Position numbers and translations under genes: made by a program. From Lepiota brunneoincarnata (Eukaryota > Basidiomycota > Agaricomycetes > Agaricales > Agaricaceae), in NCBI GenBank assembly GCA_023014365.1, contig JAEBUN010000020.1:868001-932000 (forward strand): a DNA stretch of 64,000 bases, in the 5' to 3' direction. Every line of letters starts with the position of its first letter. The stretch's first letter is position 1. The notes below the pieces were generated by a model that did not search any database, had not been told where the DNA came from, and saw only the letters and a list, made by a program, of their open reading frames with translations. Shown here one piece after another: positions 1-44,680 of this stretch.

Positions 1-63
1 CATCGACCATCATGTCCTGGAGATGAGCGATTATCTCAGCCAATGTAATAGGTTGAGAAGCAG

Positions 64-716
64 CTATATTACCGTGTTAGCACCGGTTGCTTGGGAGTTG
101 GAAGCACTGGTCATACTCTCAGCAAGTTCGGTATTGGTGTCTACCACAACAGCAGCAGAGACAGGGGCCTTGCGACCTTTGCGAGGCTAAGCTTATACAT
201 GAGGAGACGATTGGAGCCAAAAGAATGCTAAGCTTACACGTTTGGGGACAGTAGAGCCTTCGGCAACGTTGGAGGAAGTAGAGCCAGTTGTGGACGATGG
301 GTTCTGAGCCTCTTTGGTCCTGGATTTGTGGGATTCTTCAGAACGAACGCGATTAATGCAGCTACAGCATTCAGAGAGTGCCTTATAGATCGTGGGCATC
401 TCATAAGACGAATGGTAGTTGTTTTGGTAAATTTCGTAGAGCTTGCGGATACGGAAGACGTAGTCCTGGTTGACATGAAGCTTGATAGCCTCATTATCCT
501 CCGATAACGCTTCAATATAAGCAGACTAGAAATGATTTAGAAACGGCGAGAGAAGCATGGAAAGAGTAGACATACCCCAGGGGCGTCGAATGCAAGGAGA
601 GCCTTCTCGACGAGGGGACAAGCGACTTGGCCGTTTTGCAGGCGCTGAAGACGACCTTTGGCGTTGCTGATGAGATCGTCAAGCTCGACCTGGAGATGGG
701 GGATAGAAGAAGCCAT
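64..716 (-). CDS. Spliced hypothetical 183-aa protein beside a retroelement 3' end
   Basis: Three exons fit without a frame break: 716-576, 525-238 and 186-64, with GT-AG introns of 50 and 51 bp, all phase 0. The product begins MASSIPHLQVELDDL and ends with a Ser/Thr/Ala-rich tail; a CCSC cluster lies mid-protein. I do not recognise a domain. An open stretch continues upstream to 956, so the true start may lie further up. The gene points away from a polypurine tract and LTR-like sequence at about 1000-1380, the same geometry as the antisense zinc-cluster genes elsewhere in this window. It may be the antisense gene of a truncated retroelement; this is inference from position and splicing. Confidence 0.55.
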
Positions 717-999
717 TTTCTTGCGAAGGGTGTCTGCTAGAATGAGGCATCGCTCCCTCGCTTTTATAAGAAAAGGCCATAGGCAGTGATGATGAATCAT
801 AACGAGTGGATGAAGAGCACCCTCCACCCTAAGCTTATGACCTGAGGGGCCTAGGAAACCTGTAATCTTGAGTAGCCAGCCTTCAACAGACTTGCTGAAC
901 CACAGTTGCCTTATTAGGTAACGTGTCGCCAGGGTCTCGCGGTTATCAGTGTGCACAGGGATTCTGATGGAACAGTGAGGGCACCAAGTTCAATTTGGC

Positions 1000-1380
1000 T
1001 AGGGGGAGATGGGCCCCAAGTGGCGCAAGTGGCGCTTCAGTTTTGTTTGACGTGACCTTTTTCGCGGCGAACACCGTGTACAGGCTGGTTCGGGTCCGGG
1101 CTTGTAAGAAAACCAGAACAGATGACCGGGTCACTATGCGTTGTGGGTCACGGCGCGCTGAGATGTCAATAAACATCACTGATAGATCAGAGAGGCATAT
1201 AATGAGTATATAAGTGACTGGCAACCTAAACTAGCTTAGGAGTCTCCCAGGAGGTCTTTAGCTTAGCTTTAGGAGATGACAAGAAAGTCAGAAACAGTTT
1301 AGCTTAACTCAGTAGGAGACAAGGAACAACAAGATGACTATTGGGATGTATATACATGACAAGATTATATACTACATCCA
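1000..1380 (+). repeat. Probable 3' LTR preceded by a polypurine tract
   Basis: The tract TAGGGGGAGA at 1000-1009 is preceded by CAATTTGGC, and the same context (CAATTTGGTTAGGGGGAGA) lies just before the LTR at 3165. The sequence after it starts TGGG, has a TATA-like AGTATATAAG near 1205 and may end at a CCA near 1380. The right boundary is uncertain and no second copy is in the window. The body would lie to the left, partly outside the window. Confidence 0.4.
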
Positions 1381-1402
1381 AGAAGTAAACTAGGCGCAGA
1401 GA

Positions 1403-2837
1403 TCACTCAAGGTCTTCTAGAACAGACTCCGGATCCTGAGTCATCGGGAAAGCGAGGAAGAGAAGCGATTTGAGCTCCTCGAATTCCTCGTATGTTGGGA
1501 CCCCCGGAAAGTTGTTGGCGAACTCAAAGAACACCCAGACGTCTTCAAGGGAGTCGGCCATACCCATCTCTACAAAAGCCACGTCATTACCATCCAAGGC
1601 AGTCCTGGTAGCTTGCATCTCCTGGACGAATTGGTAAACTACACGGCGGTGGTGAAACGCCAAAGCCTCGTAAGCGACACGGTTTGCCTCCAGGCTGACC
1701 AAGCTAGAGGACACAACACGCGCGAACATGGCCAGATCTAGAAAAATAAAGAGAATAAGCAAAGGGAAAAATAGTGAACAGAGAAACTTACAGTATTCAC
1801 TGGTCAGTGAGGATGTGACCAGGGCGTTCGCAACGCCGGCCGAAACCCGGGGATGGTCCGTGAAGGTACAAGGGTAGTTGTACAAGTCGCAGCTGCGACA
1901 CTTCTTACCCTTGCCCAGAGGCTCGCACTCCAACTTACGAGCAGCGCAAGAAGGACACCGAGACCGAGGTGGCACATACTGGAGCAGATGTCAAAGCCAT
2001 CAGTATTTCGCCTTCTGTTTTCCTTTAAGGGCAGCTGGGATACGTGCTAAAGCGGAAGTTAGCAGAAAGGACAAATATACCTTGTAAAAGACTAAGCTTA
2101 CACGTCGAAACAGTTGAAGAGGCTACAGGAGAGGAGGGGCGGTTTGTTGAAGGGCCTGGCACCTCTGAACCTGATGCAATACCCAGGGGAGGGAGCACCA
2201 GCAAGCCTTCACCGTCAAAGGAGCGCAGAGAGATGGCAAGAGGGGGCAGCGACATTAAACTTGATGAGGCCTCTGTGGACAATCCACCAGAGGGCCCACC
2301 AACGGGGATACCTGACGAGGGTTCTGCGAAAAATCCGGCAGAACGCTCATTGGTTGGATTGCACAACGACGTGATGGAAATCACGCACCTTGGCACTGGA
2401 GCAGACAAGGGAGAGGCCGGCGGAGGAGTTGGTGCATGAGGCGGAGAGTATGGTGGAGGAGGGGTCCTTGCCACACCCACCTGACGATTTCCGCAAGCTC
2501 CTCGGGCTCCTCACCCTCCTCTAGCTCTCCTAGTACATGGTGCTGGTGGTTCCCATTGAGATAGGAGGTTGCGACGCGCCGGGAGGCGAATAGTGAGACC
2601 TAAAAGTAGAGAAAACATAAGTAAAGACAACGAGAATAGGGGAAAACACGACTTACATTGTGCGATTGATGATGAAGGCATGCCTTGGGAAGCTGTTGAG
2701 GTGCTGCTCAGCCCAGGGTAGCCTGAAAACAGGTTAAGAAAACAGAGAAAACTGTAACTCGAACTCTACTTACTGGAAGAAGAGTCCGAGTCCTCCTTGT
2801 AGTGAGCACGTTTGCTGCTGCGCGTGTTTCTGTCCAT
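1403..2837 (-). CDS. Zn2Cys6 zinc-cluster protein, antisense to a retroelement 3' end
   Basis: The core exon (about 1975-1798) reads CPSCAARKLEC, then eight residues, then CRSCDLYNYPC, which is the fungal CX2CX6C-X8-CX2CX6C binuclear zinc cluster used for DNA binding. A canonical intron (GTAAGT to TTCTAG, about 1790-1738) joins it to a C-terminal exon ending at 1403 with an acidic tail (PESVLEDLE). Upstream, a likely first exon starts at 2837 (MDRNTRSSKRAHY, Ser/Asp-rich) and is followed by introns; the middle exons (2025-2640) are Pro/Ser-rich and I could not join them with confidence. The gene starts about 320 bp inside the LTR at 3165 and runs away from it. It could instead be a host transcription factor fragment, but the position favours a retroelement gene. 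Confidence 0.6.
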
Positions 2838-3164
2838 TGTTGATAGAAGTGGGCGTTAAAAGGTGAGTATGCGAGCAGGATAGACAAGTAAGAAGTAAGA
2901 GGGAGAACGAAAGAGATGAAACGAGACCTTGGGACATTTAAAAGACCCAATAACGAGATAAAAATTTAAGCTATAGCGACAAGAAGTTGATCTATACATT
3001 TAAACTCGGTGACATGACATCATTCTGAAATAAGCTTAGCGAAAGTGCGCTACCCTCAAAGCTGGTGAACGTTCTAGACCATAGAGCGCGTCAGAGAGAC
3101 TCAGATACTGCGAATTTGAAGGAGATAATGACTGAGGACAGTCAGCAATTTGGTTAGGGGGAGA

Positions 3165-4466
3165 TGATACGCTGATTTCACGCCTATACATGAATTCCGT
3201 ACTCCAGAACAATTCTCTACATAGAATCATTGGCTATATCATTAAAGAACTCTATAGAGGATTGGTACTATATCCCATAGTAGCCAGTTCGACCGAACTG
3301 AGGATATTCAAGCCTCGGAAGTGTTCAAACCAGCTCATTATCACTAAGCTTAGTGAACCAAGCTATCAGAACGCTCTCCGGAGGGATTCAGGGCTCTACA
3401 TAGCCTATCGAGTATACCCCGGTCGCATCAAGGGACCTTACGAGCAGTTTTCTGATGAACCCGAATGCGTTTGAACATAAAGAATGTACCTAGCGGCTGT
3501 CGCAGGCGTATTACGTCTATAGCGAGTTCAATAATGATGACCGGACCACGGAACGGAACGTCCAATGTTCGGGAGGCAATACCCGATGCCCAAAACCCTA
3601 GAAATATCAAAGACTCCTAATTAACGAGTGCTTTGGGGGTCCCAGCACTTCAGCATACTGCTTAACTGAGATTAATTACAACGGATCAAGGAATTGTCCA
3701 TCTGCTATACATTCCGATCATAATTGATCCGGAAACTTAATGCGCTCACGTGGACGCAGAATAATGCAGACGAGCACGGAACACGTCTGGCTGGATTGCC
3801 ATTCGTTAATCAGAGAAAAACCCATAACCCAGGGTGAGGTAGAAATGCTGCCGAACCTTCCAAAATGTTCTACAGTGCCTGTAACAATTAAGCTTATTGT
3901 TTTCTATTTCATATTTACTATCTCTCGTATGTATCCAAACAATATAAATACGGTTGCACTTGTTCGTGAAGAAGAAGGAGGTCTCACCCCCGCTTCCACA
4001 TGCAAGTCTGCAAGCCGTGATCAAGAACGGTTTCAGAGGGCTATTTAGTGTGCGTTGTTAAGTGTGATTTCTTCGGTCGTCGACCAACCCAGAGACAGAG
4101 ACAGAGACCAGAGTTTAGAGTTTAGAGTTCCAGAGTGCTAGAGACAGAGACAGAGACAGAGACCAGAGTTCAGAGACCAGAGACCAGAGACCAGAGACCC
4201 AGCGCTTTGAATTGGCAGGGATTGTCCTTTCATTGTTGCACCGTACGGCTAAGATAACTTCAACGGCTGTTTGTTAACCTCTAAAAACACTACTCTCTTG
4301 AATTTCGCTGTCAGAATGCACCCCCAGAACACCCTAAAAGATGAAACTGTTCATTATCTATCTCATTCCACTTGTATTAGCTTAAGCTTATTGAATTGCG
4401 GCTAAGCTTAGTGAAAACAAGCCCACTATCTATATTAAAACCAACAAAAGTTTCTCCACCTTTTCA
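3165..4466 (+). repeat. 1.3-kb LTR (copy 1), probably a 3' LTR
   Basis: The sequence begins TGATACGCTG, ends CCTTTTCA and matches the full-length copies at 39709-41009 and 57449-58741. A polypurine tract (GGTTAGGGGGAGA) abuts it on the left. The flanking four bases do not match (GAGA and CCAC), unlike the two solo copies, so this looks like the 3' LTR of an element truncated on its left. It contains a TATA-like AATATAAATAC near 3948 and a GAGACA-type short tandem repeat at about 4090-4200. A 94-codon open frame in its left part is shared by the copies but is probably just LTR sequence. Confidence 0.8.
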
Positions 4467-5512
4467 CCACGGAGTGTGTCATAGACATTCTCAATTATTC
4501 AAAATACACCAACGAATGCTCAGTCTTGTTACCAACAGATCACTCCCTTTTATACTTTGAATACTTGACCTCCATCTACTTAGAGCAAATATCACTACTC
4601 AATGTATATATAGTGTATAAACTAACTCACTGCCTCCAACGATAACATCCCATCCCAAGTGCTCTTGCCCTCGGCCGTTCCCCAGAATGGAATTGGGAAG
4701 ACATATCTTATCCATGTCCTGGCGGATGGTTCTCTGAAGCATTGGAAGGGCATGTAGACATATTTATTTGGATTCCCCAGCGAAGGGGCATCTACAATGA
4801 ATCAAATAGGCAATAAGACACCAGAATGTCAGATGTACGTTTTGAACGAGGTTTAGAATATCACTCTCCCAAGCATGGTGGGCTTAGCCATCACTCCGAG
4901 TTAGAATTTTCTTTACTCAGGAGAGCGGCGGAGGCAGAACGACTCTATCACTCTGTAGATGGAGCAGCAGTAGTGTCACGGAGAGTGGTAGAAGGAATGA
5001 TAGTGGCGCTATGAGAAGCAGAATTGGAGTGCAAGACCAGGGATATGATTATTCAAGGTACTGGCATTGTAGACACAACATATATCTATTATTGAACAAT
5101 GAGCTTGGCACCCATGCTGTAGGCTTAAGCAACTCAGGGTTAGCTATATGAGAAGTAAAATACGTGGAAGCTACCATGTCCGACCCCTTGCAATGCCTGT
5201 CACAAGCTAAATCTCGAACAGGGCCAGGAAACTTGTGGCACATCACTTCTTTAGTGGCATCCATAAACTGGCGCCTTGGCTCGTGAAGTGATGATGTATA
5301 TTACAAGTTAGCATATTCGGCTCTCTGTGGAAGATCCGCTGGGCCGGTCTGGCACTTTCTGCAATAGACAGATTGATGGTGGTAGGAAGCACAGTATCAC
5401 AGAATTTGTCAGTTGATGGTTCTGTTCCTTCTGGGGGGGCATATTGGACATGGACAGTACCGGTGCAGGCTGGTGGGGTGGGGAGTAAGCCTTATGGCAT
5501 GATTGGGATAAG
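4467..5512. other. Host flank with unrecognised coding remnant
   Basis: There is no clear complete gene. On the minus strand around 4790-4620 a stretch reads like a conserved exon (YVYMPFQCFREPSARTW...) preceded by a possible intron ending TTGTAG, but I do not recognise the family. The right end is the target site of the Ty3 element (ATAAG at 5508-5512). Confidence 0.3.
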
Positions 5513-6172
5513 TGTTAGAGCCGGTGCGGGTCGGGACTGAAGCGGAGGGTCGGGGTGGTATCCTTGGTATAAGGTAACCGGGGACAGGGCAAAGTCAGTA
5601 CGTAGACTTCGGGACCGAGGCGGAGTATGTCGGGCGGGGGGTTGGACTTGCGGCCTCAGCTTATGTGCTGTGCCCTCCTACTATCCTAGTCTGTATTTCA
5701 GGAAGTCGGAGCCGAAGCGGAGCGAGGCAGAAGAGAGGAGAGGATAGGGAACAGGGAGCTGGTCCGCTGCTCGATTCAATTATCAGACTGAGGAGTATAA
5801 GCCAAGTACCTACGGTATATATACTACTGGCCTTATGAACTATGACTCGTACTGACTACGTGCAGAGCGGAGCGGAGACCGATCTAGTTACAAACGGATT
5901 ACAAACGGATTACGAATGGAATGGAAATGGGTACAGGTATGGAGACTAATAACATATCTTGACTACGGACGGGAAATGGAGACGGGGGTATGAGACACTG
6001 AGGGCCAGGTGACCACAGCATGTGTGGAGGTGGTCGTGTGATTGGGGCAGGGGGTTGTGGTCGGAGCAGGTCGGGGCCGAGTCGGAGGGCAGAGGGTTGT
6101 TGTGTGGAACACACGTGGAGTTGAGAAGCCGAAGTTTAAATGATTAGACTCTGAGTTGGCATGGATATGACA
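5513..6172 (-). repeat. 3' LTR of Ty3 copy 1
   Basis: In element orientation it starts TGTCATATCC and ends GGCTCTAACA. It has the TATA-like TATATATAC near 5819. It is about 97% identical by eye to 12681-13340. Confidence 0.95.
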
Positions 6173-6188
6173 GTGCCCCCCCTTTAGG
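6173..6188 (-). other. Polypurine tract of Ty3 copy 1
   Basis: On the minus strand, CCTAAAGGGGGGGGCAC directly precedes the 3' LTR, the expected primer for plus-strand synthesis. The same tract with one fewer G precedes the right LTR of copy 2 at about 51085-51101. Confidence 0.85.
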
Positions 6189-6242
6189 GCCGAGCCTTGA
6201 GGCCCAAGGCGGTCTAGGCTGGGGCCCATCGGAAAGTTCCGG

Positions 6243-6256
6243 CAGGGTATAAAAAC
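6243..6256 (+). promoter_or_regulatory. TATA box for the antisense gene
   Basis: GGGTATAAAAACGG lies about 50 bp before the ATG at 6304 on the plus strand, just inside the 3' LTR. Copy 2 keeps the equivalent (on the minus strand at about 51022-51028). It suggests the antisense gene has its own promoter next to the LTR. Confidence 0.55.
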
Positions 6257-6303
6257 GGTGAACTGGTTCGATTCCAAAAAACACAACTTGACCTCTTACT
6301 CCC

Positions 6304-7367
6304 ATGAGCAGACAACTCTCCCGACAACCGACCGCCGCGGAGCGCAAGGCGCAATTGTTGAGGGAGAAGGTGGAGCGAGAGGAGCGAGAGCGGTTGGAAA
6401 TCGAGAGGTTGGAGGAGGAGGAGCAACGAGAGGAGGAGGAGTGGCAGCGGATGATAGCGCTGCGCCAGCGACAAGCGGAGGAGTGGGCGAGAGAGTGTAT
6501 GGCGGAAGATATCAGGCGGCAACAAGATGAGGCTGCCGAGGCAGAGCGTCGGGCGATCCAGGCCCAACTCGTCGCAACGACTACAGGGGCCTCGTCGAGC
6601 CGTCTGTCGGAAGAACCGATGCAGGTAGATACGGAGGAGTCGGATTCCGAATACACGGATAGGGACGAGGCGGAAAATGAGGAGGAGGAGGAGGAGGACG
6701 AGGACTCCGGGGACACAGGGGGTAAGGGAAAAGCAAGGGTGAGGGCGGCCCCGCAACGGGGCCATGCGAACATATTCGGGGGTGAGAACCCCTGCTGGAG
6801 GTACGAGTGAGATGGGGTCCAGTGTGAGGTTGCCGGCGGGTAAGTCATTTTGAGGGTTTCCAAGCTACATACTGATAGTTTTTTAGTAACACCAGGAGTT
6901 GCCGTTGGTGCAGCAAAATGAAAAAACGGTGTGGGGGTCAAGAGGAGACGGAGCCGAGCGGGGCCGGGGGGATGTCGGGCCAACAATTTGAAGGTGAGTG
7001 AGGAATTTCTGACTGCGAGGTTTGCTGACCAAATGATCCCATAGAGCTGAAGCGACTTATCGAGGAGGGGCACCAGAAGACCCTCAAGCAGGTCAATATC
7101 ATGGAGGTGCGGCTTGCACAGGCCATCACTCGATTGGGGGAGAGGGTGGACAAGGTCGAGCTGACAGCTGGCCGCTATGAACAGTTACGGCATTGGGAGG
7201 CGCAGGTGGATGGTAACTGGTCGAGTAGGGGTATTACGGAGACGGAGGAGTCGGAGGAGTCGGAGGAGTCAGAGAGCATCGGAGGTATTTCGGAAGAGGA
7301 GGTGCAAGGTATGATGGAGGATGCGGCGGCGCCGCCCCGTACCTCTGGGAACGATACGGACAAGTAG
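6304..7367 (+). pseudogene. Antisense Zn2Cys6/coiled-coil gene of Ty3 copy 1
   Basis: Three exons fit in frame: 6304-6839, 6887-6993 and 7045-7367, with canonical introns (GTAAGT...TTTTAG and GTGAGT...CCATAG); 966 bp in all. The first 160 residues are Arg/Glu-rich predicted coiled coil followed by an acidic run. The exon 1/2 junction encodes CWRYE-stop-DGVQC and then CRWCSKMKKRC. In copy 2 the first part reads CWRCQQDKVLC, so the ancestral protein had CX2CX6C-X9-CX2CX6C, a Zn2Cys6 cluster. Copy 1 has lost it: the second Cys became Tyr and a TGA stop sits at 6808-6810. After the cluster come a second coiled coil (LKRLIEEGHQKTLKQVNIME) and an acidic tail (ETEESEESEESESIGG). It converges on pol with a 59-bp gap. 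A DNA-binding regulator role is inferred. Confidence 0.8.
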
Positions 7368-7426
7368 TTTGTACTTGTCCAATAATATTTTTTGTTTCTT
7401 GGTGTGGTGGGTGGTCAGCGGAAGAT

Positions 7427-10400
7427 TCAGAGTGAATGGAGGGGACCAGGCTTAGAGGGGTAAGAGGAGTGGAAAGCCTCTACTAGATCGGTAGCATGTT
7501 CAAGCTCGGTTGCCAGTAACCACAAGGATTCTTCTTCAGTATCTTCATAACCTAACCAGATGACTTTATAGAGGAGCTTGCATGCGCGGCGCCGATCAAT
7601 CTTTGAATCAACAATGCGGGCAATCTTGTATTCTGGTTCACCGTCAATAGAAACTGGCGCAGGTGGCAGGTCCGATCGGGTGGGTATGGTGTTAGGCGTA
7701 GCTGGTTCGAGCATGGAAACATGGAAGACGGAGTGTACCCCACGCATGGAATCAGGAAGTCGGAGTGTAAAGGAATGGGTACCTGCTTGTGCAATGATCT
7801 CATAAGGCCCAAGGAACTTTTCGGAGAGTTTTTTGGAAGGACAGGTGGTGCGGAAGAATTGGGCTTTCACGAATACCTTTTGTCCAACCTTGAAGTCCGG
7901 GGCGGGGAGTCGGTGGGCATCGGCGGAGGTCTGATACCGTTGCTGGGCTAGCAATATTTCAGACTTCAAGGTGGTATGTAGGTCGTCGAGGTCAACAGCA
8001 AAATGGCGGGCCCGAGCGGAGGCAAGATCGCGTTCAGGATGAACTGTGATGTTCAGATGGTATCCTTTATTAGCGAAGAACGGGGAGATACCGGTGGTGG
8101 CACTAGGAGCATTGTTGTAAGCAAACTCAGCTAGTGGTAGTAATTCAGACCAATTGTCCTGTTGGTAGTTACAATGGACCCGGAGATATTGTTCCAGGGT
8201 CTGGTTGGTGCGTTCCGTCTGTCCGTCGCCTTCTGGATGGTAGCCCGAAGTGAAATGTAACTTCATATCGAGGGCTTGTCCCAATGAGCGGAAGAAGTGG
8301 GAGACAAATTCGGAGCCGTGGTCGGAGGTAACATGTTCGGGTACGCCGTGCTTGGAGAAGACGTGGAGGACAAATAGGCGGGCGAGGTCGGAGGAGGTGA
8401 CGGTATCATAAGTCGGGATGAAGAGGGATTGCTTGGTGAGTCTGTCAACAATTACTAGGATGGCATCGTAGCCGGAGGAGGTGGGGAGTTTTTCGATGAA
8501 GTCCATGGAGATTGAATTCCAAGGGCGTTCGGGAATGGGGAGTTGTTTGAGGAGACCGTAGGGACGGTGGCGCTGGGGTTTAGACCTCATACAGGTGACA
8601 CAAGACTTACAGAAATCCTTGACGAAGGTGCAGACACTAGGCTAGGTGTACTCGCGCCGGATGAGCTCCAGCGTTTTATTCTGACCGAAGTGGCCGGCTA
8701 GGACATGATCATGCTTGTACTAGAGGACCCGAAGTCGGAGATTGTCGGCATCAGGGATGTAGATTCTGCCGTCTAAGAGGAGGAAACCTTTATCATTAAC
8801 TGACCAATGGCCTTCTGGGCTGGCAAGATGGGCGGAAGCGGTCGGATCCGCTGGTAGGGCGGTGAGGATATCGCAGTGTAGCTGATTGAGGTCCATGACT
8901 ACAGCTGCGCGAAGGGAAGGAGCGTAAAGAGTGGTGGCACGGACGGAGGCTGCGAGTTGTTCATGAGTGAACACAGGCCGGAAGTTGTGCGGGTTGACTG
9001 ATGCATAGTCGCTATTCCCCCCTTTAGGGTAGACGTCCCATCGTCTAGTTAGGGCATCAGGCTTGGTGCCGAGGCGGCCGGGTCGGAACCGGATGACGAG
9101 GTGGAATTGGGATAGGAACTCAGACCAACAAGCTTGGCGGCGAGTGAGGATTTTGGTGGTGCAGAAGTATTCGAGGTTTTTGTGGTCGGTGACTACATCA
9201 ATAGTAAGAGGGGCACCCTCAAGATAGTGCCGCCAGATACGAAAAACCTCGAATATCGCCAAGAGTTCCTTGTCGTGGGTGTCATAATTAAGTTCGGCTG
9301 TGTTAAAGGTGCGGGAATGGAATGCAACAGGGTGAACTTCCCCATCATCAGTGATGATAGAGAGGATAGCCGCAAGGGCGTAGTCGGAGGCGTCAGTCTC
9401 GACAATGATCTGAGCGTCGGGGGCCCAAGGAGTGAGGACGGGAGCAGATATGAATGCTTCCTTCAGAGAGTTAAAGGCTTCGCGACATTCGTCAGTGAAA
9501 TTCCATTTCATGTCTTTGCGGGTGAGGCGAGTGAGCGGAACGACGATGTCGGAGTAACCGTGAATGAAGCGACGGTAGAAGTTGGCGAAACCTAAGAAGG
9601 ACTGGATGTCCTTGACTTTCTTGGGCTCCAGCCACTCCTGGATGGTCTTGACCTTAGATTGGTCCATTCGGAGACCGTCAGGGGAAAGAATGTAGCCAAG
9701 ATATTCCACTGTGTCGGAGTGGAACTGGCATTTGTCGGGGCGGGCGTATAGACCATGTTGGCGGAGCCGCTTGAGGACCTCCTTGACTTGGTCACGATGG
9801 ATACTGTGATTGTCGGAGTATATCAGAATGTCGTCAAGGTAGATAGTAACGCAGACGTCGAGCATGTCCTTGAATATATCGTTCATGAACCGCTGGAAGG
9901 TGGCGGGGGCGTTGGTGAGGCCGAAAGGCATAACCATCCATTCGAAGGAGCCGTAGCGGGTCCGAAAGGCGGTCTTCCATTCGTCGCCGTCAGCAACATG
10001 GACTAGATGGTAAGCGTGACGGAGGTCAATTTTGGTATATACGCGAGCTTTGCGAGGGGAGTCTAAGAGGTCGGAGATGAGCGGAAGGGGGTAGTGATCC
10101 TTCTTGGTAATACGGTTGAGACCTCTAAAATCAACACATAAGCGGAGGGAGCCGTCCTTTTTCTTGACGAAGAGGACTGGGGCTCCATGAGGAGAAGTGG
10201 AAGGGCAAATGAAACCAATGGACAAATGTTCGTCAATAAAATCACATAGAGCTCCAAGCTCTGATTGTGAAAGGGAATAAATGGTACTGACCGGAGGTTG
10301 ACTGCCATCCTCTAGGTTAATCTGGAGGTCGTAAGGGCGGTGTGGAGCGAGTGTGTCAGCACGCGATTTACTGAAAACGTCAGCGAACTCGTGGTATTCC

Positions 10401-11229
10401 TCGGGGATGGACGAGAGGTCAGCCGGGTCATCGGAGACAGAAGAAGACGCGGCCGATGCGGAGGCGGTGGAGAGGTTGATTCGGAATTGTTGGGAGCCAG
10501 GGAGCTTGGCAGCGCGGATAAAGGCAGGAGCGTTTATCAGGGAGATATGCGGTTTTGCAATGGGGACAGGTTGGGACGAGGTCCCGGACAGGGGTGGTGA
10601 ACCTAGGTCAGGAGAGTCAGGGGTGGCCATAGGCAGGGCCGATGCGGGTGCGACGCAGGTAGAGACGGAAGCAGGATTCTTGAGTAGGGATGGCCGGAAA
10701 GTGATACTGCCCAAAACCCAGTCAATCAACAGATTGTAGCGGGTGAGCCAGTTGTGTCCTAAGACCACAGAACAGGAAGAGTCGAGCCAGGTGACATAAG
10801 TGTCCAAAATGATAGATTCACCGGAGGGGAAAGATACAGGCAGTTGCGCAAGCTCTGTAATGTAGGCATTTGAGGTCCCATCAAATAACCGAAGTTCAAT
10901 AGCCAGGATGGGTGAGGTTGGAATACTATGAGAACGAACAAAAGATGAGTCCACAAAACAGTGAGTAGAACCACTATCAACAAGAGCTTTGAAAGGAGAA
11001 AGAGAAGAGAAATCAGAACTAACTACATTGTCCATTGTAGAAATCGGGTCCGAAGCGGAGAGTACGGAAGCAGAGACAGAAGATACAGAAGTAATTAAAG
11101 GAGAAGTTAATGTGATATGAAAGGAGTTTGGGTCGGAAAGAGCGGACGCATTGAGATGGAAACTCTCTGGGGCACAGCAGAGTTCAATGCGATCCTCAGT
11201 CTGTGCAGAGGCCTGAGGACCGCCGACTA
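7427..11229 (-). pseudogene. Pol polyprotein: protease, RT, RNase H, integrase, chromodomain
   Basis: Reading from 11229 downward: aspartic protease (LVDSGSTHCFVD), reverse transcriptase (KIDLRHAYHLV; catalytic YLDDILIYSD about 400 residues after the ATG at 11035), RNase H (VETDASDYALAAILS), integrase core (MDFIEKLPTSSGYD, TSDHGSEF, YHPEGDGQTERTNQTLEQYL) and a C-terminal chromodomain (LLYKVIWLGYEDTEEESLW). The frame is -1 relative to gag and overlaps its last codons. Two stops interrupt it between RNase H and the integrase zinc region: TAG at 8722-8720, where copy 2 has CAG, and TAG at 8644-8642, where copy 2 has TGG. Otherwise the frame is open. A -1 frameshift from gag is possible, but no textbook slippery heptamer is present. 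Confidence 0.93.
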
Positions 11230-12486
11230 TTTTTCTGAGCTTGGGAGAGTCAGCGCGTCTGTCTCGGGGAGCTGAGCCTGTCGGCCTTTAGCCTTGGCAT
11301 CAGGGAATTTTTTCTTGTTGCAGTTAGCAGCCCTGTGATTGGGATCTGCGCAGACAAGGCAGAGGTTATTGTCGAAACGTCGTTGACGTTCCTCGGGGGT
11401 TAATTTACCGTCCTTACCAAGTTTACTAGTAAGGTCGGATTTGGGCGGGGCCGATTTCTGACCGGCAGACGGGTTGGGTGGATTGCCCTTGAAGCTGGTG
11501 TTGGGCGTGCTGCCTCTGTTATTATTGGCAGGCTTGGCAGCAGGTTGCAGGTTGGTCGAGGTGGAAGGGGATGGGTTACCTCCAGGTTTCCTAGAGGCAG
11601 TCGGGTCCGAAGCGGATTTGGCATGGGCCTTCTCGCGTTGGCGCTCCCAGTAGCGAGCGTTGATCTTCATCGCTGCTGCTCGCATTTCGATGAAGGTGTC
11701 GGGCTTGCCATCGGGCCGATTTGACAGAATGTCCTGGATGCGGTCGGGGAGGCCTTTGTAGTAGCAGTGACAAAATACTTCATCACCCCAGCAGAGTTGG
11801 CCAGCTAGGCGGAGAAAGTCGACGTTGTAGATGGCGATCTTCTCGTCGTAGCGCATTTGGAGGGAGTCAAGCTGCTCAGTAGCTTCTCCGGTCGGATCCG
11901 CGGGACCGAAATTGGTCTGCAGCTCCAGGGTGAACTGGTCCCAGTCCTCGATCCAGTTGTGCATTATTCCGTGGTTGTTGGCCTCATCGAGGCCGATTTT
12001 GAAGTGTTGCTGTGCCACACCTGTGAGGTATGTCAACGCGAAGTTGACCTTGGTGGCGGGGATAGCAAACTGGGCTGGGTTGGTACGGAAATAGAGTCGG
12101 TATTGGAAGAGGAAGGGTTTGAGTTTGGCAGGGTCGGAACCTGTAAAGATGTCAGGTTCGCGAGCTTTGGTACGGGGAGTTCGAGGAGGCTGTGGGGCTT
12201 GAGAGTTCCCACAGCCATCCATTTGATCGGCTATGCATTGGAAAACTTGGAGTATGAGTCTATCATGGTCGTCTCGGGTGTTGCCAGGTGGAATGTTGTT
12301 GTTGTTGTCGCCGTTGTCTGATGGTTCGTCGTCGCCCAGGGGCCCGTCCCTGTTGTCAGGATAGTCATCGGGATCACCAGGGTCGCTGGGATCAGGATTG
12401 GGGTCGGGGCCGTCGTTGGGGCCGTCGGGAGTCCGGAATACTGAAGGTTGTATATCTTCAGAGAACTGGTCTGGGGTTGAGGGCAT
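11227..12486 (-). CDS. Gag of Ty3 copy 1, intact
   Basis: A 419-aa open frame starts MPSTPDQFSED. It has an acidic Pro/Asp-rich N-terminus, a capsid-like retrotransposon-gag middle region (FLFQYRLYF...YLTGVAQQHF), a Ser/Asn/Pro-rich linker and one CCHC zinc knuckle near the C-terminus (CLVCADPNHRAANC). It packages the element RNA. It is the first gene after the 5' LTR at 12681. The same frame in copy 2 has lost its ATG and gained stops. Confidence 0.9.
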   Translation of the reverse strand: MPSTPDQFSEDIQPSVFRTPDGPNDGPDPNPDPSDPGDPDDYPDNRDGPLGDDEPSDNGDNNNNIPPGNTRDDHDRLILQVFQCIADQMDGCGNSQAPQPPRTPRTKAREPDIFTGSDPAKLKPFLFQYRLYFRTNPAQFAIPATKVNFALTYLTGVAQQHFKIGLDEANNHGIMHNWIEDWDQFTLELQTNFGPADPTGEATEQLDSLQMRYDEKIAIYNVDFLRLAGQLCWGDEVFCHCYYKGLPDRIQDILSNRPDGKPDTFIEMRAAAMKINARYWERQREKAHAKSASDPTASRKPGGNPSPSTSTNLQPAAKPANNNRGSTPNTSFKGNPPNPSAGQKSAPPKSDLTSKLGKDGKLTPEERQRRFDNNLCLVCADPNHRAANCNKKKFPDAKAKGRQAQLPETDALTLPSSEK

Positions 12487-12680
12487 GATAGATTGTCAGC
12501 GAGAGCGAGAAGCCCTTGGGGAGTCGGGTTGCAGTTCCTCGGAAGGAGGTTGTCGAGTGATGCGTTTGCTACGGCGAGCGGCTGGAGTTACCAGAGTGCG
12601 AGTACGGGTAACTGTTCGAGAGACCATGGTTAGAAAGATTCAGAGTGTGGTGGACAGGAGGAGTGTGAGTCTGATAATAC

Positions 12681-13340
12681 TGTTAGAGCCGGTGCGGGTT
12701 GGGACCGAAGCGGAGGGTCGGGGTGGTATCCTTGGTATAAGGTAACCGGGGACAGGGCGAAGTCAGTATGTAGACTTTGGGACCGAGGCAGAGTACGTCG
12801 GGCGGGGGGTTGGACTTGCGGCCTCAGCTTATGTGCTGTGCCCTCCTACTATCCTAGTCCGTATTTCAGGAAGTCGGAGCCGAAGTGGAGCGAGGCAGAA
12901 GAGAGGAGAGGATAGGGAACAGGGAGCTGGTCCGCTGCTCGATTCGATTATCAGACTGAGGAGTACAAGCCAAGTACCTACGGTATATATACTACTGGCC
13001 TTATGAACTATGACTTGTACTGACTACATGCGGAGCGGAGCGGAGACCGATCTAGTTACAAACGGATTACAAACGGATTACGAATGGAATGGAAATGGGT
13101 ACAGGTATGGAGACTAATAACGTATCTTGACTACGGACGGGAAATGGAGACGGGGGTATGAGACACTGAGGGCCAGGTGACCACAGCATGTGTGGAGGTG
13201 GTCATGTGATTGGGGCAGGGGGTTGTGGTTGGAGCAGGTCGGGGCCGAGTCGGAGGGCAGAGGGTTGTTGTGTGGAACACACGTGGAGTTGAGAAGCCGA
13301 AGTTTAAATGATTAGACTCTGAGTTGGCATGGATATGACA
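12681..13340 (-). repeat. 5' LTR of Ty3 copy 1
   Basis: 660 bp, TG...CA ends. The element transcript would begin here, downstream of the TATATATAC box near 12987. I see no obvious tRNA primer site with the usual TGG beside it; the adjacent internal sequence is GTATTATCAGACTC. Confidence 0.93.
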
Positions 13341-14460
13341 ATAAGCTGTGTCCTGCTTTATACATGTGTAGCCTGAAAAGGGAAGCTAATTAATGACATG
13401 GACATTGAAAAGGAAGAGAAAGAGACATGCTACGATTTTCTGAGCTCTGCGAGTAGTGGTAGAGGATGTGATAATACACAGAAGAGATCTGCTTTAAATA
13501 ATTGGGTGAGATGCTGTAGACAATGTCAATTCTCTAAGAGGTAGGAGTCACGTCAAGCTAGCAACTTACCGTCATGTTTTATTTTTATAATGAGGTGGAA
13601 TCTGGATCCAGGCACAACACATATTTGGAATACATAAAGGCTGAAATAATCTGTTGGAAAAGATAATTAGATGGGAGACAAGTAGACTTGCATCACTATT
13701 GTTTGAGTTACAATATTCAATTTCTCGTCCCCATAGGTCCGGTCGGTGAGGTAGCAATGCGATTGCTTGCTTCATTGGTCATCCAACTTGGATGCAGCTC
13801 GAAGGCAGTCAAACACGCGCATGGGCACAAACAATGACAACGAGGGGCCAAGCCCGCACATCCGTCTTATAAAGTTATGATTTCCAGTGATTGCCACTAC
13901 AGACCTACTCAGTTCTGTGAGGATGGCACGGGTGGCACCACAAATATGTGGGGTATATAGTTACAATCACACTGCTGTGATTCTCTGTTGAGATGGTGAG
14001 CTGTGGGGCTGAAGGACCACAGGTCACACACATGATGTTACCTCTGTACTACGTGTGTTGGTGGTTCGCTTTTAGTGCGCTTCAAGCAGTAAAAGGACTG
14101 GGAGTGTGTGGGTGTCGTGGTTGCCCCTGCGGTCTTGTCCAGATTAATGGAGGAGGGGATGATGGGTGCTATGCGAGCAGCCATTGTTGGCCCTCCACAC
14201 CACCTCTTAGGGAAGCTCCAAGAGCCTAACACCGGTCGAAGTTGGCTTCCTCATACACATTTACCAGTGGCATAGCCTTCAGGCTGTGGCCTGTGCTTCA
14301 AAATATGAGCTTGAGGTTACATGATCCAAATACAGTGGCATCAGGGCGGCCAACTGAGTTTCATTTGTCAGACTGCGCGTCTTGCAGTGTTTGGTTTGAA
14401 TCATGGGCACATGAGCCTGTTGTATTCAAAATAGCATTGTATCCATCTTGCTGCATGTTA
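13341..14460. other. Host sequence between transposons
   Basis: It starts with the ATAAG target duplication and ends at the TA target of the pogo-like element. Short open frames occur on both strands but none has a recognisable domain or splice pattern. I see nothing definite in it. Confidence 0.4.
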
Positions 14461-35779: not shown

Positions 35780-36509
35780 CTTCTCCTTCTGCCATACTGC
35801 AAAGATGTAGTCACAGAAGCAGTGATGGAAGTAAAATATTGGATCGAAGCCTGCCATCTCATTATTGCCCATGTCACCATTGGTACCCCTGATGGGATTG
35901 GCATTATACACTCCCCCCTGATAAAAACCTCCAACAGAAAGGTGGATCGCATTGTGTGCACTTTCCATTGCAACATAGGAATGCTCCACACCCCCATGTT
36001 CTGTGATCAATTGATTTTGAGAATCCGTATTCAAGAAGACTGTGTAATTGGGTGCTTGGAGACTGCACAAGTACCGCATGGTAACAGAATAGGTATCAGG
36101 CATTCTGGTGTCTGGGTTCCCATCAGGTGTGATTTTGACTGTACCTTCCAACCAATTGGCCACATTGGCATTGAGTATTTGGGTGTTCAGTTCTTGATCC
36201 TGCCAGTGTGCATTGTGGATCCTCATGGTCTCTCTATCCTCTGGGGTTCCTACTAAGCCTGAGAGTGGGTATTGAACAGTCTCATATCCCTTGTGTTTGC
36301 TGTAACGCTCATTTGTACCTTCAACTTGCTCCTCCAGAGCTTATTGGAGCTTGTACGAGTATAACAGGCTATTGTTTCAACTGTTGAGTTCAAATGTAGG
36401 GGAGGTAAGAATGGATGGGATTGGCTGGGAAGGGTCAGTACCTATGTTGGCCAGCTTGTCCCAGAATGAGATAGTGACGTTTTGACAACCTGAGATGCTT
36501 CATAGCACA

Positions 36510-38091
36510 TCCTCAAGACAAAGGAGATAAGCTCAGTGCCAGGTGGGGAACAAGATGGTGGCATGCCAGCAATAGCCTCCCCACCATGTTGGATCTGTTG
36601 TTCCTGGTCCAAGGAAAGGCTCTCCATGGTAGCTGGCAATGCGGAAGAAAGAGTTTGGATCCTTTGGATTGAGGGCCTGAATACCACAGAATGCCCTGAT
36701 CAAATTTTCGACTGGGACCTGTCTTCACCTGTATCATACAGGTTCTGAATGTATGCAAGAGAATAGCATATGCAAGTTGCAGTCATGATGTTTGTATATG
36801 TTGGCATGAAGTAATGAGATGCTAGTCAAAGTGCACTTGTAAGCAAGTGGAATGAGACTGGGATGACTCTGCACTGACATACCAGGGGGGGGGTTTGATA
36901 ATGGTGTGTGAACCAATTGCTGGGGTTTCACATCCTTAGATGCAGGCCCTTATATGTGCAGAACCCCATCATATTGCAGGTTGGTTCAATCGAGAAAATG
37001 ACACCATCTGGGGTACCCTTGGAGTATCTGTGGTGTTACTATTGAACTTGCAGAAGCTGGCATCTTCCATACCAGCTGCCCAAAGCTGCAATGTACTGGA
37101 TGGAATCCTAGTTGATCACCTGCCTTGCTCTCTACCAATCATGTTGTGGGTGTGAGGTCATGAGTCAGCTGAGGCTGAGCTTTTTTTTGGGGGTTGCTTT
37201 GGTGGTGATCATCATTGTGGTAGTCCCTGCACCAATAATCACAGCTGAACATCTAATGAGCAATTTCAGCTGATTGAAATATCCCTATTCCCATGGCTCT
37301 TGTAGAGGAGCTCTGGGAGGGAGTCTCACCTGTGGGGTACTGTAGCTCTCATTTGGTGGGTAGTGGCAGAGTGGCATCATAATTGAAAGTGATAAGCTTT
37401 TGTAAGATGATCAGACTTGCCATTGCTGTTCCTGTATTGTTGACCCCACAGTGCATGACAGGTTATATGGTTTGATATCTTCACATGACTGACTGTGCCC
37501 ATTAATTTAGCTTTGAACTTAGGGAGGTTCGATAGGGGGTTCATCGAACCACCATCTATTTACAATCATACAATCTGCCTGTCAAATATCTGAAGGTGGC
37601 AGTAAGAAGTCCATACCCCTTACTTCAATTCCTCCTTTTGCAAATTGGGCTCCTGAGTGGATATCCTGTGGTGGACTTTTGTGAACATCATCTCCACAGA
37701 CTCCCATGAAGTGGTGCTGGTGTTTAACATTGCCTCAGCCTGCTCCTTAGGCCCAAGTATCTGCAGAATTAACTGAGTTGATCTGGTTAAGAGGTTCTTA
37801 TATTTTGGGGTGGGTCAAGCCTCAGCCAACTGCTAAAAATAACTAGTAGTGGCAAAAAAGCCTGAGAGTGGGAACCCTCATCTTGGGACTGGAAGGGGGT
37901 GCAGAGTATGAATACAGTATATGCCAATCAATACCTTCTCTGTATGGCTCTTCTATGGGGCAGCCCTGAGCTTCTGAGAAGGGAGTTTCTGATGAGCACC
38001 TCCACATTCACAAGTGGACAAGTTCGGATGGGAATGGTAATCAATATTGGTCAGAGCCATGGCCACACATCAGCATCAGAGCTACTGCCAT
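36510..38091. repeat. Tandem duplication, unit 1
   Basis: The unit holds tyrosinase 5' coding sequence (36510-36930) plus upstream DNA. It repeats as 38092-39671 with scattered substitutions. The joint is clean: GAGCTACTGCCA is followed by TCCTCAAGAC at 38091/38092. The upstream DNA has no gene I recognise. Confidence 0.85.
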
Positions 38092-38521
38092 CCTCAAGAC
38101 AAAGGAGATATACTCAGTGCCAGGTGGGGAACAAGATGGTGGTGTGCCAGCAATAGCCTCCCCACCATGTTGGATCTGTTGTTCCTTGTCTGTGGAAAGG
38201 CTCTCCATGGTAGCTGGTGATGTGGAAGAAAGAGTTGGGATCCATTGGATCAAGGGCCTGAATACCATGGAATGCCCTGATCAAATTTTCGAGCTGGGAC
38301 CTGTCTTCACCTGTATTGTACAGGTTCTGAATGTATGCAAGAGAATAGCATATGCAAGTTGCAGCCATGACATTTGTATATGTTGGCATGAAGTAATGAG
38401 ATGCTAGTTTAAGTGTGCTGGTAAGCAAGCAGAATGAGACTGGGATGACTCTGCACCGATGTACCAGGGGGGGGGGGGGGGGTTGATAACAGTGCACAAA
38501 CCAATTGTTGGGGTTTTGCAT
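38092..38521 (-). pseudogene. Duplicated tyrosinase 5' fragment
   Basis: The minus strand reads YIQNLYNTGEDRSQLENLIR and FFHITSYHGEPF, then WWGGYCWHTTILFPTWH, the copper-A half only. The copy stops at the duplication joint, so it never contained copper-B. It is less damaged here than the same part of unit 1. Confidence 0.85.
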
Positions 38522-39671
38522 CCTTAGATGCAGGCCCTTATATGCAGAACCCCATCATATTTTAAATTGGTTCAATTGACAAAATGATGCCGTCTGGGGT
38601 ACCCTTGGAGCATCTGTGGCATAACTGTCGAACTTGCAGAAGCTGGCATCTTCTATACCAGCTGTCCAAAGCCGCAACGTACTGGATGGAATCCTAGTTG
38701 ATCACCTGCCTTGCTCTCTATCAATCATGTTGTGGGTGTGAGGTCATGAGTTGGCTGAGGCTGAGCTTTTTTTTGGGGGTTGCTTCAGTGGTGATCATCA
38801 TTATGGTAGCCCCTGCACCAATGTTTACAGTTGAACACCCAATAAGCAATTTCAACTGGTTGGAATATCCATATTCCTATGGCTCTTGTGTAGGAGCTCT
38901 AGGAGGGACCCTCACCCATGGGGTACTGTAGCTCTCATTTGGTGGGTGGCAGTGGAATGATATCAGAGTTGAAAGTGGTAAGCTTTCTTAGATGATCAGA
39001 CTTGCCATTGCTGTTCCCCTATTGTTGACCCCACCATGTACAACAAGTTGTACAGTTTGATATCTTCACATGACTGACTGAGTGTGCCCATTTAATTAGT
39101 TGAGCTTACAGGAGGTTTGATAGGGGGTTCATTGAACCACCATATATTTACAATCATACAATCTGCCTGTCAATCATTTGAAGGGAAGCTCCATGCCCCT
39201 CACTTCAATTCCTCCACTTGCAAATTGGGCTCCTGAGTGGATATCCTGTGGTGGACTCTTACAAGCATTCTCTGTATTGACTCCCACAAAGTGGTGCTGG
39301 CATTTAACGTGGCCTCGGCCTGCCCTTTAGGCCCAAAAATCTGTGGAATCAACTAAGTTGATCCAGTTAAGAGGTTCTTATATTTTGGGGTGGGCCAAGC
39401 CTCAGCTGACCACTAAAAATAATTAGTAGTGGCAAAAAAGCCTGAGAGTGGGAACCCTCATCTTGGGGCTGGAAGGAGGTGCAGAGTATGAATACAGTAT
39501 ATGCCAATCAACACCTTCTCCGTGTGGCTCTTCTATGGACCTGCCCTGAGCCTTCAAGAAGGGAGTTTCTGATGGACACCTCCACATTCACAAGTGGACA
39601 AGTTCGGATGGGAATGGTAATCAATATTGGCCAGAGCCATGGCCACACATTGGCATCAGAGCTATTGCCAC
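38092..39671. repeat. Tandem duplication, unit 2
   Basis: It is the second copy of 36510-38091. It carries a G-run of 16 at about 38467-38482 where unit 1 has 9. It ends before the short stretch leading to the solo LTR at 39709. Confidence 0.85.
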
Positions 39672-42473: not shown

Positions 42474-43078
42474 TGTCATATCCATGCCAACTCAGAGCCT
42501 AATCATTAAACTTCGGCTTCTCAACCCCATGTGTGCTCCCATGCAACAATCCTTTGCCCTCCGACTCAGCCCTGACTTGCTCTGACTACAACCCATTGCC
42601 CCAGTCACGCGACCACCTCCGCACGTGCCATAGTCACCTGACCCTCAGTGTCTCTATATCCCAGTTCTCCATTCTCCGCCTGTAGTCAGGGTATGTTACC
42701 AGTCTCCATACCTGTACTGGTTTCCATTCTATTTGTAACCATTTGTAATCCATTTGTAACCATATTGGTCTCCGCTTTGCTCCACACATAGTCAATACAA
42801 GTCATAGTTTGTAAGGCCAGTAGTATATATACTGTAGGTACTTGGCTTGTACTCCTCAGTCTGATAATTGAATCGAGCAGCAGACCAGCTCCCTGTTCTA
42901 TATCCTCTCCTCTCTTCTGCCTTGCTCTGCTTTGGCTCCGACTTCCTGAAATACAGACTAGGACAGCAGGAGGGCACAGCACATATGCTGAGGCCGCAAA
43001 TCCAACTCCCTGCCCAAAGTACTCCACCTTGGTCCTGAAGTCTATGTACTGACTTCGCCCTGTCCCCCGGTTACCTTA

Positions 43079-44680
43079 CAGTGGTGTCCAAAAGTATTGC
43101 ACCATCATGTGACCTGATCTCTTGATCTCGCTTATCTATTTCATGTAACACTTGAGGTGAAACAAAGTATGCTGTTTCATGCTCCAGGACACAAGGAATC
43201 ATCATGGCAATGAAACTTTGCTGTATAATGTATTCTAGGAATAAAATTCATGTTTTAGCGCCACACCTATGGTGCATTTCTTTTGGACATCTAAGTTCAA
43301 TCACCTTTGAAGCTATATAGGCGAAGCCAGAGTGAACAAACCTCAAGTTTTTTGCATCATTCAGGCCTCATTACACCATGGTCTATACTTCCCCATCTAA
43401 AGTTGCTTGCATTGTTGAACTCCGGTCTTCTGGAATGACCCATAGACAGATTGGGTCAAGGATCAGTATCCATCACTCTACTGTCAGCTGTGTACTCGAC
43501 AGATTCTCCAAAACTGAAGATCCATATTATGTCAGGCCCAAATCCAGTCGCCCTCGAAAGCTGGATGAGCGCCAAGTGCGAGTTGGGGCCTGGCTTCTTG
43601 CCCGAACGGAGGTATCCAATGCAACTGAATTGGCTAAAACCACCTTCCCGGGTGTGTCACGCCAAACAGTAGCACGCTCCCTAAAGGAGAAAGGATTGAT
43701 ATGCCAAGTCAGGAGGCCCTGTCCCTACATTTCTCCAATCAATCAGAAGAAGCAACTTGCGTGGGCATGCCAGCATTCTGATTGGACGGTTGATGACTGG
43801 AAGGAGGTAATTTTCTCCAATGAATCTAAATTCCTCCTTTTCAAGTCAGATGGCCGTCAATATGCTTGGATGAAGCCTGGACAGGCCCTGGACCCTCAAT
43901 TTACCAAGAAGAACATCAAACTCGGGGGGGGGAATATTATGGTTTGGGGGTGCATCACTAGTCAGGGGGTAGGGAGGTTACATCAGATATCCGGCATCAT
44001 GTGTGGTCCGGATTATGTCAAGATCCTTGAAAAGTCTTATCTAGGGACTCTCAAGGATCTTAATCTGAGATCCACAGGTCGAAGTGCACCAATTTTCCAG
44101 CAGGATAACGATCCGAAACACAGGAGTAAAGTTGCCGAGGAATTTTTCAAGAAGAAAAAAATTTGCCACTTGGACTGGCCACCCTCAAGCCCTGATATGA
44201 ACATTATGGAGCATGCATGGGACCAATTGGATCATCTTGTGCATGCCCGTGACCCTCTTCCTCGCAACCAGGATGAGATGTGGGCTGCTCTTCAGGAGGA
44301 ATGGGGTAATATATCTCAAGAAAATTTGGACATCCTTTTTGAGAGTATGCCTCATCGTGTTGAGGCAGTAATTAAGGCCCAGGGTGGAAACACCAAGTAC
44401 TAACTTGTTTCAAGGTGAATGGTTTTGTTTTCATCCCACAATGCTCTAATCTTATCTCTTAATAGGTGATGTCCAAAAGTATTGCACCATCCTTTTCACA
44501 CTCCTCCTCATTTTTTGATTTAAATTCTGTATATTATGTCTCTCAACTACTATATATCGATTCCCTACATGCTTAGCTCTCTGTCAATATAATTTATGGA
44601 TGAAACAACAATGATCTCGAAGAATGAGAGAGAGTTGATCCGTTGGTCATGTGATGGTGCGATACTTTTGGACGCCACTG
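43079..44680 (+). mobile_element. Tc1-like transposon inside the Ty3 copy 2 LTR
   Basis: 1602 bp, ends CAGTGGTGTCCAAAAGTATT and, inverted, CAGTGGCGTCCAAAAGTATC. It is flanked by TA (43077-43078, 44681-44682), and the intact right LTR shows the empty site (CCTTATACC). It is unrelated in sequence to the element at 14553. Confidence 0.93.
43378..44403 (+). CDS. Tc1-family transposase with altered first catalytic Asp
   Basis: The 341-aa uninterrupted frame begins MVYTSPSKVACIVELRSSG, with an HTH (GMTHRQIGSRISIHHSTVS) and FQQDNDPKH plus NIMEHAWDQL spaced 34 residues apart. The first catalytic motif reads FSNESKF instead of the usual SDESKF, so Asp has become Asn (GAT to AAT). The protein is open throughout but should be unable to cut DNA unless that Asn is an error. 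Confidence 0.9.
   Translation: MVYTSPSKVACIVELRSSGMTHRQIGSRISIHHSTVSCVLDRFSKTEDPYYVRPKSSRPRKLDERQVRVGAWLLARTEVSNATELAKTTFPGVSRQTVARSLKEKGLICQVRRPCPYISPINQKKQLAWACQHSDWTVDDWKEVIFSNESKFLLFKSDGRQYAWMKPGQALDPQFTKKNIKLGGGNIMVWGCITSQGVGRLHQISGIMCGPDYVKILEKSYLGTLKDLNLRSTGRSAPIFQQDNDPKHRSKVAEEFFKKKKICHLDWPPSSPDMNIMEHAWDQLDHLVHARDPLPRNQDEMWAALQEEWGNISQENLDILFESMPHRVEAVIKAQGGNTKY

Follow-up and report, generated by a model that had tools for sequence, protein, structure and literature searches.

Antisense genes between pol and the 3′ LTR are called "relatively frequent" in plants, with the fungal element Boty included, in PMC7264820, and this contradicts the initial annotation of the locus studied here, which had regarded retroelement genes as rarely antisense. 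The same paper reports an own promoter and a nuclear protein for the antisense gene of Grande, considers nuclear and accessory functions for the antisense proteins of plants, and discusses non-coding antisense roles for other elements, as does PMC10186651. For the TRP28 antisense proteins of Retand, DNA binding was predicted and a regulatory role suggested (PMC11963269). The title of Zhao et al. 2011, cited in PMC8365987, names brtn as an additional antisense gene of Boty in Botrytis cinerea, and HBZ of HTLV-1 is described as a regulator that acts in the nucleus and reduces viral expression (PMC10186651). The function of antisense genes of LTR retrotransposons is presented as an open question in PMC7264820 and PMC11963269.

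We analyzed a 64,000-nt stretch of DNA from Lepiota brunneoincarnata (source genome: 55.6 Mb, 95 contigs), hereafter called the window, in which such a gene occurs in a Ty3 element. Its slot and orientation are already known from the systems above. No description of an antisense Zn-cluster gene in a fungal retrotransposon was found among the titles and abstract openings covered, with most subscription journals outside that scope; as far as this literature shows, what is new comprises the Zn-cluster content, the two retained introns with measured selection, the pair of candidate sites within the antisense promoter, and gene-less derivatives that have been amplified.

Structure of the element and its antisense gene

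Element 1 of the window has the PR-RT-RH-IN order, chromodomain, LTRs and 5-bp TSD of a Ty3 chromovirus, and its layout, LTRs and TSD confirmed the initial placement of the gene between pol and the 3′ LTR of a complete Ty3 element. In the window copy pol is split into two frames, and the two LTRs show 17 differences, transitions only.

5513–13340, minus strand: Ty3/chromodomain element 1, complete layout, TSD ATAAG at 5508–5512 and 13341–13345
5513–6172, minus strand: 3′ LTR, TG...CA, 660 bp
6175–6189, minus strand: polypurine tract adjoining the 3′ LTR, conserved among copies; the antisense promoter region begins here
7427–11287, minus strand: pol (protease, RT, RNase H, integrase core, Tf2-type SH3, chromodomain), convergent with the antisense gene
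11227–12495, minus strand: gag (PF03732)
12681–13340, minus strand: 5′ LTR, 660 bp, 97.4% identity to the 3′ LTR
about 42474–51764, plus strand: second element copy
49926–50968, minus strand: antisense gene of the second element copy, the same gene as at 6304–7367

A Tc1/mariner-like transposase frame at 43336–44403 (family judged by eye) splits the 5′ LTR of the second element copy (window 43078–44681). Elsewhere (36508–39489), two tandem copies of a unit about 1,580 bp long share 87–92% identity.

The antisense gene of element 1, separated from pol by 59 nt, comprises the following features.

6248–6254, plus strand: TATAAAA box, between polypurine tract and start codon
6304–7367, plus strand: antisense gene, three exons
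6304–6839, plus strand: exon 1; Arg/Glu-rich coiled-coil-like N-terminus, acidic stretch, basic stretch, first half of the Zn cluster
6793–6932, plus strand: codons of the Zn2Cys6-like cluster; Cys at 6793, 6802 (TAC here), 6823, 6900, 6909 and 6930
6840–6886, plus strand: intron 1 (47 nt), GTAAGT...TTTTTTAG, interrupting the Zn cluster
6887–6993, plus strand: exon 2; second half of the Zn cluster (CRWCSKMKKRC in the window copy) and linker
6994–7044, plus strand: intron 2 (51 nt), GTGAGT...CATAG
7045–7367, plus strand: exon 3; amphipathic coiled-coil-like segment, acidic tail, stop

The coordinates, the three exons, the canonical introns and the TATA box given in the initial annotation were exact. 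Two alternative acceptors of intron 1, at 6895 and 6898, also leave the frame open; they were set aside in favor of 6886 as the more probable acceptor, because the latter is the first AG clear of a CTGAT branch-like motif and is aligned with the AG ending the diverged intron of locus L047.

Conservation, decay and selection

A DNA search of the genome with the gene yielded 41 matching pieces (best 40 of 202 candidates scored), and the resulting alignment contained 31 rows: 30 loci, including the window copy itself, together with the other copy present in the window. Counted one by one, the splice dinucleotides were intact in 30, 31, 31 and 29 of the 31 rows, and all four together in 28. Five of the six cluster cysteines were present in every row and the second in 30, the window copy being the sole row with a lost cluster cysteine (TAC, 6802–6804); it also carries an in-frame stop at 6808–6810, so that the full CX2CX6C-X9-CX2CX6C pattern is seen, as had been noted initially, only in other copies.

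When 55 rows were translated under the three-exon model, 12 were free of stops, two of them identical (L029/L030) and one (L045) flanked by LTRs that are 99.85% identical; the remaining 43 had stops or frameshifts or were truncated, and some were rearranged. The 31 rows contain 46 stops in register, of which 38 arose by CGA-to-TGA change, the expected mark of CpG decay following insertion. Taken with the all-transition differences (17) between the LTRs of element 1, these 38 stops suggest CpG methylation and deamination of element copies.

The comparison of dN/dS across copies, proposed in the initial annotation, indicated purifying selection: values (NG86) ranged from 0.18 to 0.46 in 15 pairs among six stop-free copies of different subfamilies, with dS up to 0.90, and were 0.30 or lower in 13 of the 15 pairs, which are not independent, as the copies are related, so that the counts are likewise not independent. 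The frame was kept despite differences in exon length among stop-free copies. RT was under tighter constraint than the antisense gene (dN/dS 0.04–0.09; three pairs, 300 codons), and the stretch from protease to RNase H gave 0.19 (633 codons, pair of the window copy and L043), near the value of the antisense gene. A chance ORF was rejected on the basis of splice sites and cysteines conserved over 31 rows and of dN/dS well under 1. From its sequence, the gene is probably a genuine protein-coding accessory gene of the chromodomain Ty3 family.

The introns are unevenly conserved, the share of interior bases in common varying from 15/38 (L045–L047, intron 1) to 37/38 (L005–L008, intron 1). In the pair L008–L047, the two introns share 15/39 and 36/41 interior bases, respectively, and this combination of one far and one close intron within a single pair points to recombination. 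Locus L051 is a mosaic with an L047-like start and an L045-like end of the antisense gene, which is evidence that elements have recombined or that templates were switched between them.

Distribution of the gene and of gene-less derivatives

A protein search of the genome with exons 2–3 of L029 as the query gave at least 343 matches (best 150 of 309 candidates scored), and the 146 exon-3 rows listed were compared with the 150 best-scoring of 927 candidate pol ends. At least 122 of these 150 pol-end loci had a convergent exon-3 match at a gap of 73–231 nt, and among the matches listed no same-strand exon-3 match lay within 400 nt of the pol end at any of the 150 loci. Three further pol-end loci with the gene came from the genome DNA search, and inspection of 23 of the 25 remaining loci revealed a full-length gene in 9, internal deletions or a remnant in 8, and no gene within about 1.6 kb in 6; C52:29209 is a deletion copy, and C11:142524 is the sole uninspected locus. 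The tally for the best 150 of 927 is thus 134 loci with at least exon 3 (an exon-3 match alone not being proof of an intact gene), 9 deletion derivatives, 6 loci with none and 1 unseen. The initial annotation had allowed for a gene confined to this element, a case set aside by the 134 loci that retain exon 3. In the other direction, 24 of the 146 exon-3 rows lacked a counterpart among the pol ends listed. The slot between pol and the 3′ LTR, the orientation opposite to gag-pol and the presence in most copies of the family are those of an antisense additional ORF of LTR retrotransposons (aORF-3R).

A deletion that extends from about codon 18 of the gene into exon 3 is shared by at least four copies (C52 twice, C69 and C25), which are 99–100% identical across the joint (best 40 of 408 candidates scored) and have pol frames of 1286, 1181, 1286 and 1286 aa. 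In six loci with an internal deletion, the overlap of the matches at the joint is 8–17 nt, which corresponds to short repeats. Five of the six gene-less loci have one common junction, and in these the polypurine tract and the LTR are still present, the LTR of L090 being partial. Two subfamilies have lost the gene through a common deletion and yet multiplied (L071, L073, L074 and C52:28761–29230; L083, L084, L087, L089 and L090). Because gene-less derivatives have been amplified, the antisense protein is dispensable in cis; these derivatives fit a trans-acting product or a dispensable regulator and argue against an essential cis function.

The predicted protein and its relatives

The protein begins with an Arg/Glu-rich coiled-coil-like region, continues with an acidic and then a basic stretch, the cluster and a linker, and ends in an amphipathic segment and an acidic tail; the coiled-coil-like flanks (judged by eye) and the acidic stretches agree with the initial description. 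Its cysteines are spaced C-X2-C-X6-C-X9-C-X2-C-X6-C, within the Zn2Cys6 range of CX2CX6CX5-12CX2CX6-8C. Matches to Pfam Zn_clus (PF00172) were sub-threshold, with 12.7 and 14.7 bits for the protein and 16.2 and 15.3 bits for pieces of it, against a gathering score of 21. The first cluster half alone matched profile positions 15–32 of 39 (16.2 bits), and the second half alone gave no match to the Zn_clus profile. The basic run SKMKK(R/W/Q) sits in the second half; typical Zn2Cys6 clusters have their basic residues between Cys 2 and Cys 3 and thus in the first half. Thus, the six-cysteine spacing behind the original Zn2Cys6 assignment stood, and its scores under the Pfam cut-off and the basic run in the second half did not agree with that assignment. 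The cluster is better described as apparently Zn2Cys6-like with the character of its halves exchanged, and not as a Pfam member; zinc binding and DNA binding are predicted for it. The layout of the whole protein is one that we take to be Gal4-like, and the basic stretch is the only sequence hint of nuclear location. A Pfam scan at E up to 1 revealed no bZIP family, and a PDB profile search gave no significant match (best E 0.14), with the Zn2Cys6 chains 6o19 (Pho7) and 6e33 at E 5 and 7, respectively.

The search proposed in the initial annotation placed the gene antisense at the pol end within its own genome, with exons 2–3 of L029 as the query; the spliced protein gave no homologue in the protein database, in which none of 7,995 candidates scored reached E ≤ 0.01 and, with residues 138–280, none of 284 candidates reached E ≤ 0.1. 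As a control, pol matched 7,939 proteins at E ≤ 1e-20 of 7,982 scored; the closest named fungal relatives among the 120 matches listed, at 66–76%, were in Agaricus and Leucocoprinus, and a search of viral_contigs with pol found nothing. Since relatives of pol are present in the database, the absence of the antisense protein is informative but falls short of proof, since such a search loses power with spliced genes and with low-complexity words.

Candidate sites in the antisense promoter

Two candidate sites of the form CGG-N6-CCG, which resembles the Ppr1 site, lie between the polypurine tract and the TATA box and recur across subfamilies together with the latter.

6210–6221, plus strand: candidate site A, CGG-N6-CCG (right half CTG in the window copy)
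6230–6241, plus strand: candidate site B, CGG-AAAGTT-CCG

Promoters were compared at 54 loci (51 distinct sequences) of 75, of which 13 belong to the second family described below; a recognisable polypurine tract and TATA box were the selection criteria. In the 51 promoters, non-CpG changes amounted to 3/306 and 6/306 in the half-sites of the two candidate sites versus 31/306 and 48/306 in the six interior bases, and CpG-type decay within half-sites was seen in 41 and 38 cases. The polypurine tract and an adjacent block were invariant too, and since the promoter adjoins this tract, part of its conservation may serve reverse transcription.

At the 47 loci with LTR sequence, of 90, CGG-N6-CCG had 38 matches in 6,110 nt of antisense promoter versus 0 in 31,020 nt of LTR. 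At least one site was found in 30 of these loci and no intact site in 17, and 4 of the 38 matches are a third, overlapping match that is neither of the paired sites. Among 20 promoters listed, 11 had at least one site and 9 had none. Shuffling of four promoters, picked for having two sites, gave P of 0.0013–0.0037 at a spacing of N6 and of 0.027–0.052 when any spacing of 0–20 was allowed; for the L047 promoter, with one site, P was 0.048 and 0.589, respectively. L045, in which the second site has decayed, contains four more CGG-N6-CCG in the gag-pol part.

Regulation of the element's own LTR, considered in the initial annotation, found no sequence support, given the lack of CGG-N6-CCG from the LTRs of the 47 loci. 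The placement of the sites suggests autoregulation and not LTR control. The conserved TATA box (6248) is outside the 3′ LTR, which ends at 6172, and marks a putative promoter of the gene's own.

A second element family with an antisense Zn-cluster gene

The window also begins with part of another LTR element.

1–4468, plus strand: 3′ end of the second LTR-element family; antisense frames, one with a Zn cluster; 1.3-kb LTR

Compared with its relatives, the window copy has lost about 590 bp at 2005/2006. On C12, the copy represented by L046, L068 and L069 contains a gag-protease frame, a pol frame, and then antisense frames and the 1.3-kb LTR, with 5′ and 3′ LTR pieces 99.6% identical over 264 nt. 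Domains matched in its pol were RNase H and the integrase zinc-binding domain, from which the family is probably of Ty3 type; the RT model gave no match in this pol.

For the antisense gene beside the LTR, two models that maximise length were built; one gives an open spliced frame of about 620 codons, so that the introns are uncertain, and the gene contains CPSCAARKLECEPLGKGKKCRSCDLYNYPC. By inspection, an additional antisense frame lies closer to pol. The Zn domain of the gene beside the LTR was found in 137 genome rows at E ≤ 1, 133 of them below 1e-8, with a few loci split into two rows, and scored 13.8–19.1 bits against Zn_clus, under the cut-off. The Zn proteins of the two families match each other at E 0.08 and have only the Cys pattern in common, which suggests two recruitments of one kind of domain. 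A polypurine-like TTTGG(C/T)TAGGGGGAGATG occurs twice in the second family (window 994–1011 and 3149–3166; L046 about 6880 and 9640), one preceding each antisense frame, as if a module of gene plus tract had been added. In this genome, element-borne Zn-cluster rows (343 and 137) outnumber the Zn_clus rows above the Pfam cut-off (36 of 79), all of these counts being rough owing to introns and split rows.

Discussion

The explanation that accounts best for these data, to which we give about an even chance of being correct, is a spliced antisense accessory gene whose product would be a nuclear, dimeric Zn2Cys6-like regulator that autoregulates in trans and tunes gag-pol. It is built on the exon–intron structure seen in conservation, the selection, the distribution of copies, the location of CGG-N6-CCG and the amplified gene-less derivatives. 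An antisense transcript would start at a TATA promoter of its own, immediately internal to the 3′ LTR, run against gag-pol and be spliced twice. Introns that are reversed in genomic RNA escape removal; standing backwards there, the two introns would remain unspliced and be retained through every round of retrotransposition. The antisense placement therefore shows a route by which an intron-bearing gene can persist in an element copied through RNA. The product would re-enter the nucleus, bind as a dimer to the two CGG-N6-CCG sites upstream of its own TATA box and so set the level of the antisense transcript, by either activation or repression. Protein from few or many copies could act in trans on the element population, and gag-pol might be tuned by transcriptional interference, because the antisense transcript runs towards it, or by other partners of the protein.

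More tentatively, and with doubts about the combination as a whole, the results may be read jointly: a half-swapped Gal4-like antisense regulator would sense element dose through its own CGG-N6-CCG pairs and set gag-pol in trans, gene-less derivatives would exploit or escape this control, and the second family would have converged on it independently.

Among other explanations, the protein might be an accessory factor of retrotransposition and no transcription regulator, one that brings the pre-integration complex into the nucleus, chaperones it or targets integration, and whose cluster binds RNA, cDNA or a partner. The selection on the gene and its wide retention among the elements, the basic and coiled-coil-like segments, and the roles raised for plant antisense proteins in PMC7264820 would all suit such a factor; however, it would have to act efficiently in trans to account for gene-less derivatives at four or more copies that are 99–100% identical, and it leaves the CGG-N6-CCG in the antisense promoter unexplained, so that we consider it unlikely.

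Action mainly on host genes or host silencing, as an anti-silencing protein or host-gene regulator, is less probable still: the Gal4-like layout would suit host promoters and many copies could serve as a source of protein, but the candidate sites were found in the antisense promoter of the element itself. We likewise see only a slim chance that the antisense RNA is the working product, forming dsRNA with gag-pol RNA to limit or tune the element, with the ORF secondary. The genes are convergent with a gap of 59 nt, so that an RNA reaching the 3′ LTR would hold the full complement of gag-pol RNA, and non-coding antisense roles are discussed elsewhere (PMC7264820 and PMC10186651), whereas codon-level purifying selection and in-frame length differences point to a protein. 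A decayed passenger, captured once as a fragment and copied along without function, would fit the 43 of 55 translated rows that are not stop-free (some truncated, rearranged or frame-shifted) and the derivatives that lack the gene, but is scarcely credible in view of dN/dS of about 0.2 between stop-free subfamilies, which largely refutes neutrality, of 38 of 46 stops being the CGA-to-TGA changes expected of CpG decay after insertion, and of the 12 stop-free rows, including L045 with its nearly identical LTRs.

The regulator hypothesis is made directly testable by the DNA-binding-type Cys cluster, the candidate site pair, the copies with and without the gene, and the codon-level selection.

In comparison with known systems, the protein resembles Gal4/Ppr1-type Zn2Cys6 factors in its six-Cys spacing and in the linker and amphipathic segment downstream, and differs from them in scoring under the PF00172 cut-off, in the basic run of its second half, and in a first half that corresponds to the later part of the profile. 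Like HBZ of HTLV-1, for which a spliced form is known, the gene is antisense, adjoins the 3′ LTR and is probably spliced, as judged by splice-site conservation; HBZ, however, belongs to the bZIP proteins and its expression starts from the 3′ LTR, whereas this gene has a Zn-type cluster without a bZIP match and an internally placed TATA box, and the LTRs scanned contained no CGG-N6-CCG. Boty with brtn is likewise a fungal LTR element with an additional antisense gene, according to the title of Zhao et al. 2011 and the mention in PMC7264820; the closest named pol relatives here are those of Agaricus and Leucocoprinus. With gene23 of maize Grande, rice RIRE2, Silene Retand and PvRetro13, the gene shares its slot, its orientation and its presence in most copies. 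In contrast to these plant elements, whose antisense genes encode TRP28 or SMC domains, it belongs to a fungal chromodomain element, encodes a Zn2Cys6-like cluster, and has two conserved introns and CGG-N6-CCG in its antisense promoter.
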